Positions 21,066 to 27,336 of a stretch of 64,000 nt of DNA are shown here, piece after piece. The notes under the pieces are model-generated. The model saw only the letters and a list, made by a program, of their open reading frames with translations, was not told the DNA's origin and did not search any database. Position 1 is the first letter of the stretch. Each line of letters opens with the position of its first letter. The position numbers were made by a program, and so were the translations under genes. The stretch is taken from contig NZ_JABAGR010000002.1 of NCBI RefSeq assembly GCF_012844235.1, positions 124,001 through 188,000 on the forward strand. Direction: 5' to 3'. Source of the stretch: Parafannyhessea umbonata (GTDB lineage: Bacteria; Actinomycetota; Coriobacteriia; Coriobacteriales; Atopobiaceae).

Positions 21066-22508
21066 CTACGAGTGGACGTAGACGGTGTCGCCTACCTTGA
21101 CGAGGCCGTAGAGCTCGCGCGCCGCCCTCGGGGGGAGGTTCACGCAGCCGTGGCTTCCCGCATAGGAGTAGATTGATCCGCCGAAGGCGGAGCGCCAGCT
21201 GGCATCGTGCAGGCCCACTGCGTTGCCGACGAACGGCATCCAGTACGCGACGTGGCTCTTGTAGTCGGGCTCGCCGTCGCCGTCCTCGTCCGTGCCGACG
21301 AGCGTCTCGTTCGTGCGCTTCGCGTTGACCTTGAACGTTCCCGTGGGGGTGGCCCGCCCCTCGGACGTGTTGCCGCTCACGAAGTACGAGCGCCAGATGA
21401 CCGAGCCGTCCTCGTCGTAGAAGCGCGCGTACTGGGTGGAGAGGTTCAGGTCTATGTGGCGGCCGCGGCCCTCGTGGCCGGGCGTCTGCGCGGGACGGGT
21501 GGCGGTGACGGCGAGCGGAACCTCGAGGGAGCCGTCCTTCTCGCCCTGCGCGGCGTTGGCGACGGACGCCGCGAGCGAGGCGGCGTCGATGGCGTAGTCG
21601 TGCTCCTCGTCGGACTTCGCGACCTTCTTCGCGAGGGAGTCGCGCGCCCACTGGGCGATGGCGTCACGGTCGAGGCCCACGGAAAGGTCGTCGCCCACGC
21701 GCACCCAGGTGGCGACCGTCTTCTTGTCGAGCTTCGCGAGGGGCTTTCCTTCCTTCGTGAGCGTGATGGCATGGCCGGCGTACGCGTTCGCCGTGTCCAC
21801 GGCCTTCAGAAGGCCGGCGTCCTTGCTCGTGAGCTGCGGGCGGAGGAGCGCGTCGCGTTTGAGGGAGACCTTGGTGTGGAGGCGCGCGACGTCCTTCTCG
21901 ACCTGCGCCTTGACGACGTTGGCGTCGAGCGCCGTGCCGAGCGCCTCCTGCGTGACCTCGAACGTGGACGTCTTCTGGTTCAGGGTGCACCAGGCGTTCT
22001 TGGGCGGCGTGGCGCTCTGGTTGTGAGCCTGGACGGCGGCGTCGACCAGGGCGTCGAGCTTCTTCCTGTTGTAGGCGACGGTCTTGGACACCGTGATGTG
22101 CCTGGGGTGCGTGAGGTCGAGCGCCCACGAGGCGGCGTCGGTCTGGGCCTTCGCGTCGCGGGCGTAGTCTGCGGGGCTGACGTCCAGGTCGATGTCAGTG
22201 GCGCCGATGGCGAAGGTGAGGCCCTGGCCGGCGACGGTCGTCTTCCAGGAGGCGGCGCTCGTCGCGACCTGGCGAGCGAGCTCGGCCTCCGTCATGTTGG
22301 ACACGTCCGCGCCGTTCACGGTGGTACCGGGGACGAAGTGCGAGCCATAGTAGCTTGTGCCCGCGACCTGGCCCGCGACGAGGGCAGTCGCGATGCCGAG
22401 GGCAAGGAGGGGGATCGCCTTCCTGCGGCTCTTGGCTGGCTTGGCGGCCGTTGCGCCGGCTGCGGAATCGGTCTTGCGTGCGTGCTTTGCGGACGTGGGC
22501 TGGGCCAA
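21066..22508 (-). CDS. L,D-transpeptidase (YkuD) with N-terminal anchor
   Basis: The 480-residue protein is a single-pass membrane protein (segment about 30-50 after a basic N-terminus) with a large extracellular part. A region resembling PG-binding repeats (about 60-330) precedes the YkuD catalytic domain (about 350-480). The catalytic signature GLHDASW, with YSYAGSHGCVNLPP, gives His and Cys in the expected HX(14-17)SHGC arrangement. Such enzymes form 3-3 peptidoglycan cross-links or attach proteins. The five-hairpin array lies directly upstream of its start. Confidence 0.9.
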   Translation of the reverse strand: MAQPTSAKHARKTDSAAGATAAKPAKSRRKAIPLLALGIATALVAGQVAGTSYYGSHFVPGTTVNGADVSNMTEAELARQVATSAASWKTTVAGQGLTFAIGATDIDLDVSPADYARDAKAQTDAASWALDLTHPRHITVSKTVAYNRKKLDALVDAAVQAHNQSATPPKNAWCTLNQKTSTFEVTQEALGTALDANVVKAQVEKDVARLHTKVSLKRDALLRPQLTSKDAGLLKAVDTANAYAGHAITLTKEGKPLAKLDKKTVATWVRVGDDLSVGLDRDAIAQWARDSLAKKVAKSDEEHDYAIDAASLAASVANAAQGEKDGSLEVPLAVTATRPAQTPGHEGRGRHIDLNLSTQYARFYDEDGSVIWRSYFVSGNTSEGRATPTGTFKVNAKRTNETLVGTDEDGDGEPDYKSHVAYWMPFVGNAVGLHDASWRSAFGGSIYSYAGSHGCVNLPPRAARELYGLVKVGDTVYVHS

Positions 22509-22659: not shown

Positions 22660-22984
22660 CCTCACTACCTGACAGGTGTGATTTCTGTCAATTAGTGAGG
22701 GGTTAGTGCGCGGGAAAAGGCCTCACTTTCTGACAGGTTCGCCTTCTGTCAGGTAGTGGGATGGTTTGCGCATGCCGAAGTGGTTTTTTCGCGAAAAAGT
22801 CCACCACTACCTGACAGGTGTGACTTCTGTCGGGTAGTGAGGCGAATTGCACGTGTTAGGGAGGCTTTTTTCAGCCAAGAGGCACCACTATCTGACAGGT
22901 TCGGCTTCTGTCAGAAAGTGAGGGACTCGTACGCATCAAAAGGCACCACCTTCTGACAGGTGTGACATCTGTCAGAAGGTGGTG
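22660..22984. repeat. array of five 41-bp imperfect palindromes
   Basis: The units are 22660-22700, 22721-22761, 22802-22842, 22883-22923 and 22944-22984. Each has CTGACAG, a 9-nt loop and CTGTC(A/G)(G/A) within a longer inverted repeat starting CTCAC/ACCAC and ending GTG. Spacers are exactly 20, 40, 40 and 20 bp. Loops alternate: units 1, 3 and 5 read GTGTGAnnT and units 2 and 4 read GTTCGsCTT. Unit 5 is a perfect 16-bp stem. The left arm of unit 2 is fully complementary to the right arm of unit 4, which suggests growth by duplication of a two-unit block. The array lies between the LDH-like gene (3' side) and the L,D-transpeptidase gene (5' side). Not CRISPR: units are palindromic and vary. 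Confidence 0.9.
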
Positions 22985-23053: not shown

Positions 23054-24001
23054 CTACTCGATGCTCGCGAACGCCTCGCGGATGACGTTGCAGGATGAGT
23101 GCATGGCGTCCCTCTCGTCCTGCGAGAGTTCGAGCGGGAGGATCTCCTGGATGCCGTTGCGTCCGAGGATGCATGGCACTCCCACCGAAACGTCCTTCTC
23201 GCCGTACTCGCCCTCGAGGTGGACGGAGAGCGGCGTCACGAGGCGCTCGTTGTGGAGGATGGATGCGATGAGCACGGCGACGACGGAACCGATGCCGAAC
23301 TCCGTGGAGCCCTTGCCGGCGACGATGCGCCCGCCAGAGGTGTGGACGGTGTCCGTGAGCGTGGCGTAGTCGAGCTTGTCTGCGAGCTGCGGGTGGCTGC
23401 GCAGGTACTCCTCGATGCCGATGCCGCCGATGGAGACGTGCGTGCGTGGGATGAACGAGGAGTCGCCGTGCTCGCCCATGCAGAACGCCTCGACCTGGTC
23501 GCGGTCCACGTCCACGATGCTCGCGATGTGGCGCCTGAGGCGGACGGTGTCGAGCGACGTCCCGGTGCTGAACACCCTCGAGCGCGGGAGGTCGAGCTTG
23601 CGATAGAAGTACTCTGCCACGACGTCCGCGGGGTTGGACACGCAGATGAGGAAGCCGGAGAAACCGGACTTCGCGATGGGGTCGACGATGCTGCCCAGGA
23701 TCGAGAACGTGCTCGCGAGCATCTGGAGGCGCGTCTCGCCGGGTCGACGGCTGCGGCCGGCTGTCATCACGATGAAGCTCGCGTCCGCGCAGTCGTCGTA
23801 GGTGCCCACGCGGATGTGCACGTGGCGCCTGGTGGCTGTGAGCATGTCCTTCAGGTCTTCCACCTGTGCGTTTGCAGCGTCCTCGTTGATGTCCAGGAAC
23901 ACGATCTCGTCCGCGTACTGGCTGACCATGAGGTTCATGGCGACGTGGCTGCCCACGTTACCGGCTCCGATGATTACGACCTTGCGTGCTAGCTGCGTCA
24001 T
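23054..24001 (-). CDS. L-lactate/malate dehydrogenase family protein
   Basis: The 315-residue NAD-dependent 2-hydroxyacid dehydrogenase has the Rossmann GAGNVGSHVA (residues about 12-21), catalytic His in GEHGDSS (about 175-181), and the aspartate-containing region VSNPADVV near 122. The active-site loop reads RSRRPGETR. The residue before the RPGETR block is Arg, at the place where lactate dehydrogenases carry Gln and malate dehydrogenases carry Arg, so substrate choice is uncertain (pyruvate/lactate, oxaloacetate/malate or a branched oxoacid). ATG 24001 follows GAGGGGTGG. Confidence 0.85.
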   Translation of the reverse strand: MTQLARKVVIIGAGNVGSHVAMNLMVSQYADEIVFLDINEDAANAQVEDLKDMLTATRRHVHIRVGTYDDCADASFIVMTAGRSRRPGETRLQMLASTFSILGSIVDPIAKSGFSGFLICVSNPADVVAEYFYRKLDLPRSRVFSTGTSLDTVRLRRHIASIVDVDRDQVEAFCMGEHGDSSFIPRTHVSIGGIGIEEYLRSHPQLADKLDYATLTDTVHTSGGRIVAGKGSTEFGIGSVVAVLIASILHNERLVTPLSVHLEGEYGEKDVSVGVPCILGRNGIQEILPLELSQDERDAMHSSCNVIREAFASIE

Positions 24002-26702: not shown

Positions 26703-26797
26703 GGGTAGACTGCCGTTCGCCAGAGGTGAAGGAGCATCCCGGTTTCCCATAGGATAGAATGTCGGAAAGTCAGAAATTCATACTCTTGGAGGCCGGG

Positions 26798-27061
26798 ATG
26801 CTCACGACGCTTAAGGACAAAGGTCAGGTTACGATACCGAAGAAGCTAGTCAATCAGCTCGGCCTTGTCTCTGGTGACACTTTCGATGTCTACATCGAGG
26901 ATGGGGAGATCCGCTTTGTCCCGGTAGTGATCTATCCCAAGAAGAAGATTGAAGAACTGGAGCGTCTTGCCAGTGAGGCAGAGGAGGGGCTATCCAGCGG
27001 GGACCTTCCAGTTTTTGAAGATGCGGATGATGCGATTGCAGATTTGCATCGGGCCGGCTGA
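26798..27061 (+). CDS. AbrB/SpoVT-type antitoxin
   Basis: The 87-residue protein has an N-terminal swapped-hairpin AbrB domain (LKDKGQVTIPKKLVNQLGL at about 4-22), which would bind DNA and repress its own operon, and a C-terminal acidic helix likely to cover the toxin. ATG 26798 follows TTGGAGG; the ORF begins 13 codons earlier without a ribosome site. It overlaps the toxin start by one base (TGATG). The GC content is clearly below that of neighbours, which suggests transfer. Confidence 0.82.
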   Translation: MLTTLKDKGQVTIPKKLVNQLGLVSGDTFDVYIEDGEIRFVPVVIYPKKKIEELERLASEAEEGLSSGDLPVFEDADDAIADLHRAG

Positions 27062-27336
27062 TGCCATATAAGCTCGTGCTTGCGCCTTCGTTTAAGAAGG
27101 CGTATGCGAAGCTTGGGAAGAAGGAGCAGGCGCAGGTCGAAAACAAGATTCGGCAGCTTGCTATTGATCCGTGGCACCCTTCCTTGCGCGTCAAGCATAT
27201 ACGTGCTTCACATGAGTTTGAGTGCAGCGTGAACATGGACGTGAGAATAGCGTTTAAGTTCGAGGAGGGTCATCTCATCCTGTTGTTGGACGTGGGTCAT
27301 CATGATGCATTGCTCCGTCGGCGTACAAGAAGATAG
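27061..27336 (+). CDS. RelE/YafQ-type mRNA interferase toxin
   Basis: The 91-residue basic protein has the RelE/ParE fold pattern: PSFKKAYAKLGKKEQAQVENKI helices (about 9-30), then strands with HIRASHEFECSVNMDVRIAFKF and LLLDVGHHDALL at the end. The paired HH near the C-terminus is typical of YafQ-like ribosome-dependent nucleases. It would cut mRNA when the antitoxin is lost. It is coupled to the AbrB-type gene and shares its lower GC. Confidence 0.82.
   Translation: MPYKLVLAPSFKKAYAKLGKKEQAQVENKIRQLAIDPWHPSLRVKHIRASHEFECSVNMDVRIAFKFEEGHLILLLDVGHHDALLRRRTRR

Follow-up and report, generated by a model that had tools for sequence, protein, structure and literature searches.

What does an ordered row of five palindromes do in the gap between a lactate/malate dehydrogenase gene and an L,D-transpeptidase gene of Parafannyhessea umbonata (G000)? 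The first-pass annotation of the window (the whole 64,000-nucleotide stretch that was analysed) had offered three ideas, namely a multi-site protein-binding array, a switchable RNA leader of the L,D-transpeptidase gene, or a replicating small repeat. Each unit has two arms of 16 bp around a centre, or loop, of 9 bp (16-9-16), and the array with its two flanking genes is laid out as follows.

21066-22508, minus strand: L,D-transpeptidase (YkuD) gene, Pfam PF03734; start codon 152 bp from the array
22660-22700, no strand: palindromic unit 1 (16-9-16); loop GTGTGATTT, 14/16 pairs
22701-22720, no strand: 20-bp spacer between units 1 and 2; 6 turns centre to centre, A-tract AAAA on its right side
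22721-22761, no strand: palindromic unit 2; loop GTTCGCCTT, 12/16 pairs
22762-22801, no strand: 40-bp spacer between units 2 and 3; 8 turns centre to centre, phased A/T tracts
22802-22842, no strand: palindromic unit 3; loop GTGTGACTT, 13/16 pairs
22843-22882, no strand: 40-bp spacer between units 3 and 4; 8 turns, phased A/T tracts
22883-22923, no strand: palindromic unit 4; loop GTTCGGCTT, 13/16 pairs
22924-22943, no strand: 20-bp spacer between units 4 and 5; 6 turns, AAAA on its right side
22944-22984, no strand: palindromic unit 5; loop GTGTGACAT, perfect 16-bp stem, 16/16 pairs
23054-24001, minus strand: lactate/malate dehydrogenase gene, Pfam Ldh_1_N and Ldh_1_C; stop codon 70 bp from the array

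The geometry described by the first-pass annotation proved correct in all its coordinates: five 41-bp units starting at 22660, 22721, 22802, 22883 and 22944 (61, 81, 81 and 61 bp apart), spacers of 20, 40, 40 and 20 bp, loops that alternate in type, a perfect stem in unit 5 alone, and full complementarity between the unit 2 left arm and the unit 4 right arm. The motif CTGACAG-N9-CTGTCAG, which had been ascribed to every unit, is exact in units 2, 4 and 5, whereas unit 1 ends in CTGTCAA and unit 3 in CTGTCGG. The 20-40-40-20 symmetry is present but not special in itself, being an instance of the whole-turn spacing that holds for the arrays in general (see below).

The suggestion that such order is unlikely by chance was borne out at the genome level. 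Across the 2.3 Mb of G000, the core CTGACAG-N9-CTGTCAG had 20 exact occurrences, and 39 when up to two mismatches were allowed, compared with 0 and 2 for the reversed control pattern. All but two of these 39 sites (37) fall in nine clusters on six contigs, that is, nine arrays with 37 units. The complete genome of a sister species of the same genus (G001) holds nine clusters as well, and by their flanking genes all nine arrays are syntenic between the two species, with none private to either (G000/G001 pairs: window/L029, L019/L035, L020/L033, L021/L032, L022/L027, L023/L028, L024/L030, L025/L031 and L026/L034). Since all nine locations are common to both species, none has moved since their split. 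The idea of a replicating small repeat therefore holds as far as a family of units goes, but not as far as recent movement is concerned. Likewise, the first-pass annotation held that copies scattered over the genome would mark an ordinary mobile repeat; the copies are scattered, but the conservation of all nine positions and the helical rule tell against the word "ordinary".

Elsewhere the arrays are scarce. No array was found in a third species of the genus (G002). Its junctions at hisS, ldh and the purine-nucleoside-phosphorylase gene are plain, and an ordinary terminator stands behind ldh in place of the array. Among 140 genomes of the family, the exact core was found only in G000 and G001, plus one lone site in G061. 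Searches for the array pattern in viral contigs and in plasmids found none, a search of a genome contig collection returned only two unrelated chance matches, and a literature search gave no description of such arrays in this bacterial group.

The rule that governs the arrays is one of distance. Centres of neighbouring units lie 40-41, 49-52, 61, 70-71, 81 or 112 bp apart (57 intervals), and these distances fit n x 10.13 bp with an intercept of zero, a resultant R of 0.96 and a root-mean-square residue of 0.5 bp; a period of 10.5 bp fits worse, with a residue of 2.5 bp. When 18 of the 57 intervals were dropped for having homologous spacers, the remaining 39, whose spacers are mutually dissimilar, gave the same period and an R of 0.96, compared with a maximum of 0.51 among 3000 random sets in a Monte Carlo test. 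The sites are thus whole helical turns apart, as expected of a phased array (period 10.13 bp; 57 intervals, 39 of them independent), although part of this spacing may have been inherited through tandem duplication inside arrays. Turnover follows the same rule. Units have been gained or lost between orthologous arrays, and unit number and spacing differ nearly always by whole turns. In the window array, one 81-bp step was lost or gained relative to the sister species, the best alignment showing unit 3 with one such step as missing there; and an 11-bp deletion separates one spacer of L024 and L030 (81 to 70 bp, or 8 to 7 turns). Arms are 87% identical between orthologues, compared with 68% for loops and 79% for the remainder, which includes coding flanks.

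The spacers point to the helix as well. The sequences of the twenty 40-bp spacers are mostly unlike, yet to either side of a unit A/T recurs 24-26 and 35-37 bp away from its centre; the A/T fraction is 0.7-0.9 at these in-register positions and about 0.2 between them. A/T power at 10.13 bp in these spacers was 6.4, compared with 0.63 +/- 0.31 in shuffles (shuffle maximum 2.05), and whole arrays peaked at 10.15 bp in G000 and 10.10 bp in G001 over a background of 0.8-0.9. No A/T phase of this kind was seen in the 10-bp spacers. A wedge model of intrinsic curvature showed no general bend and no overall rise, so we make no claim of curved naked DNA; the A/T register suits DNA that is bent or wrapped by a protein.

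Taken together, we consider it somewhat probable that the arrays are a DNA-level platform, on which a putative cooperative, sequence-specific protein would occupy several adjacent palindromes along a single face of the helix. Among the three ideas of the first-pass annotation, the multi-site protein-binding array is best supported, by the 10.13-bp spacing, the A/T register and the independent half-sites of the core. Judging from the conserved positions, a dimer or tetramer would contact each 41-bp unit via the half-site YCACTWTCTGACAGRW (W = A/T). With centres whole turns apart (10.13 bp per turn) and A/T tracts at each turn, the stretch could then be wrapped or coated as one nucleoprotein body. 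This reading rests on the spacing by whole turns, the shared A/T register of spacers that are unrelated in sequence, the whole-turn turnover and the half-site-like variation of the units, and we also count in its favour the nine syntenic arrays and the conservation of arms above loops. That, among species of the host genus, the array is known from only two counts against it.

The same observations bear on another explanation, that the units are REP/BIME-like interspersed palindromes, selfish or once mobile, multiplied by a transposase and now immobile, with a spacing that stems from their mode of duplication. In its favour, the units are dispersed intergenic palindromes of 40-41 bp, lineage-specific in sequence and absent in a close species; palindromic repeat clusters of other kinds occur in further genera of the family, modules have been duplicated within arrays (a 184-bp module in L026), and loops keep one orientation. 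However, a RAYT-type transposase was found in neither G000, G001 nor G005 (a member of another genus), a GTAG tag lies outside the stem in just 1 of 75 units, and about 37 copies at nine shared positions, none private, are far from the hundreds expected. In addition, neither insertion nor duplication would be expected to place units whole turns apart across non-homologous spacers, or to bring A/T tracts into phase. As a full explanation we regard this as unlikely, if worth serious attention; that the units began as mobile repeats is quite possible, and this would be compatible with a function at present.

Over 74 units the consensus is CCTCACTATCTGACAG-RWNNNNNWY-CTGTCAGATAGTGAGG (R = A/G, Y = C/T, W = A/T, N = any), with purines before the centre and pyrimidines after it. 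At core position +1, each side varies independently of the other (T-A 58, C-A 8, T-G 6 and C-G 1). Outer-arm positions -1 to -4 and -6 covary (z 3.8-7.5), which simple DNA half-sites do not require and which counts against the platform; such covariation could be explained by template-switch repair of quasi-palindromes or by a hairpin function. The 9-bp centre is not palindromic (consensus RAGYGCGAY). Centres of one array share a single direction (in 120 of 134 pairs, compared with no more than 92 in shuffles), and this direction is in most pairs kept between species. An asymmetric, uniformly oriented loop is not explained by a symmetric dimer and is a further point against the platform. It would be at home in a site-specific recombinase crossover site, where two inverted arms flank an asymmetric 9-bp centre and sites follow head to tail: the 16-9-16 geometry, the conserved centre in one orientation per array, and the gain and loss of units between species all agree with it. 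Nonetheless, there are no genes between the sites and hence nothing to excise or invert, the centres differ between units, which would block recombination, and crossover sites do not need helical spacing, so that we hold this explanation to be very improbable.

Constraint at the level of RNA was weighed against constraint on the DNA. The units could act in RNA, as intrinsic terminators or as hairpins at the 3' end that protect the transcript of the upstream gene or bring it to an end. The transcript folds strongly (hairpin fold z -11), the arms covary, the species that lacks arrays has an ordinary terminator at the same junction, and a T-run follows 14 of 150 unit sides, 12 of these 14 running in the direction of the abutting gene. 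Given this shared direction, transcription probably also stops at some units, and those that adjoin gene ends would sometimes double as intrinsic terminators. In the window, unit 5 together with the TTTT that follows it on the minus strand looks like a putative intrinsic terminator of the gene at 23054-24001, and the intrinsic-terminator consensus has one match within the array. As an account of the arrays as a whole, however, RNA hairpins are quite unlikely: the majority of units lack a T-run, divergent genes flank one array pair, an Rfam scan of the region gave no match, and helical spacing with A/T tracts at 2.5 and 3.5 turns is meaningless in RNA. Mispairs in stems, read on the transcript strand, comprise 24 G-U and 21 A-C; since G-U is about as frequent as A-C, RNA pairing is not what is selected, and the lean towards G-U that a structured regulatory RNA would show is missing, which we count in favour of the platform. 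Together with the Rfam result, this places the main constraint on the DNA. The second idea of the first-pass annotation, a switchable RNA in the L,D-transpeptidase leader, is not supported, given this same lack of G-U preference and the presence of the same arrays at eight other junctions beside unrelated genes, mostly behind stop codons.

Where the arrays lie says something about the role of such a platform. Most start 20-90 bp behind a stop codon; besides the window junction, their neighbours are a response regulator and a cation ATPase, a nucleoside phosphorylase and tRNA-Thr, hisS, the purH neighbourhood, an aldo-keto reductase, a 6-pyruvoyl-tetrahydropterin synthase and a DEAD helicase, a GmrSD-type endonuclease, and RNase PH with MurE, where gene calls rest on reading-frame composition and are partly uncertain, and names come from Pfam where scanned and otherwise from inspection by eye. 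These neighbours are unrelated housekeeping and other genes, and a shared regulon was rejected. Nine arrays at fixed junctions beside functionally unrelated genes suggest an architectural or boundary role instead, and the main role may, tentatively and with more doubt than conviction on our part, be one in local chromosome architecture or in keeping neighbouring genes apart, topologically or in transcription. On the 2.35 Mb chromosome of G001, the distance of the arrays from dnaA ranges from 126 to 948 kb; as the nine do not cluster at the origin, an origin-proximal, parS-like centromere was rejected.

Several features adjoining the arrays, or near the array in the window, are recorded here in their own right. 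The GmrSD-type restriction endonuclease beside one array (L025:6126-8270) carries a RAMA domain. A 359-aa protein beside another (L028:4987-6066) has low third-position GC and no Pfam match, and is endonuclease-like by eye. Phage-like genes follow the array-adjoining tRNA-Thr in G000 (L020:6100-12001) and are absent from the sister species; they are probably a prophage integrated in the tRNA. Within the window, at 26759-27336, a pair resembling (by eye) an AbrB-type antitoxin and a RelE-type toxin has low third-position GC and is found in the sister species too.

A comparable design was found in another genus. Behind hisS, G005 carries an unrelated palindrome, TCCGSAACCTGCACGT-N9-ACGTGCAGGTTGCGGA (S = C/G), which is also 16-9-16 and 41 bp long, with about 44 genome copies, neighbours 61 bp apart and an A/T period of 10.15 bp. 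Two further species of that genus, G104 and G121, have palindrome copies at places syntenic with G005, and G104 uses a variant half-site, ACCCGCACGT, at the same 61-bp step, with an A/T power of 13 at 10.15 in one array. Spacers in this genus are partly conserved, so the 61-bp step alone is not independent evidence; the fixed step is partly the length of the repeat unit, and the support comes from the A/T period. The same 16-9-16 geometry and 10.15-bp period with an unrelated sequence in a second genus is counted for the platform.

G013 seemed initially to offer a third phased example, which was then rejected. Its 40-bp palindromes have spacings of 41 and 112 and 72-bp spacers that are conserved in sequence, and these conserved spacers with an A/T period of 8.0 rather than 10.1 bp led us to count them as a different repeat family. 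In L081-L100 of G013 (e.g., L081:2444-2748), a 152-bp repeat of a 40-bp palindrome, the conserved 72-bp spacer and a second 40-bp palindrome occupies about 20 junctions, with a sharp A/T period of 8.00 bp (power 18 vs. a background of 0.9), 40 and 112 being multiples of 8. We also observed that the hisS 3' junction bears palindromic arrays of unrelated sequence in three genera (L021 and L032; L041/L124 of G005; L040/L087 of G013). Sampled stretches of other relatives held other palindromic repeat clusters, none with whole-turn spacing; lineage-specific examples occur in G007 (L173:350-530, 64 bp), G004 (L179:18545-18720, 38/95 bp) and G014 (L152:415-545, 83 bp).

When palindromic repeats are dispersed through a bacterial genome, they are mostly put down to mobile leftovers or RNA hairpins. 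In the present case, spacing and the A/T pattern of unrelated spacers follow the helix at nine conserved loci in two species, and again, with a different sequence, in another genus. A cooperative protein function at the level of DNA can therefore be tested directly, and the arrays provide a clean system for the co-evolution of a chromosomal site set and its binding protein. It is a bolder and rather unlikely proposal that several lineages of the family each have their own sequence-specific DNA-wrapping system. In each, some ten to twenty intergenic platforms at fixed places would encode a nucleosome-like wrap at 10.1 bp per turn for a dedicated protein, and between genera this protein would have changed in step with its 16-9-16 palindrome.

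Among known systems, REP, BIME and REPIN elements are defined as short intergenic palindromes of 20-50 nt, clustered with linkers (PMC8266576). Those with a RAYT (TnpAREP) resemble the arrays in their short, clustered, lineage-specific and mostly intergenic palindromes, and the arrays are indeed extragenic. The arrays differ in lacking a RAYT (the Y1_Tnp profile, PF01797, had no match in G000, G001, G002 or G005, and one in G013) and a GTAG tag (the 1 of 75 units noted above, within 6 nt outside the stem), in having about 37 units in only nine syntenic clusters instead of hundreds of copies or more, and in running head to tail, as their uniform loop orientation indicates, rather than as inverse REP/iREP pairs; identity with RAYT-type REPs was rejected on these defining features. 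Whole-helical-turn distances and spacer A/T tracts in register set the arrays apart further. Intrinsic (Rho-independent) terminators share the hairpin followed by a T-run with some of the units beside gene ends, but an array here has up to seven hairpins, most of them bare of a T-run, with one pair between divergent genes and no G-U bias. Helically phased multi-operator arrays are known from Fis sites upstream of rRNA promoters, Lrp sites, and the site sets of SlmA, Noc and MatP. The arrays described here are like these in their repeated palindromic sites on one helical face and in forming a set spread over the chromosome; they differ in a longer site (41 bp), in larger spacings that vary freely by whole turns (4-11 turns), in 10.13 rather than about 10.5 bp per turn, and in their positions at gene ends.
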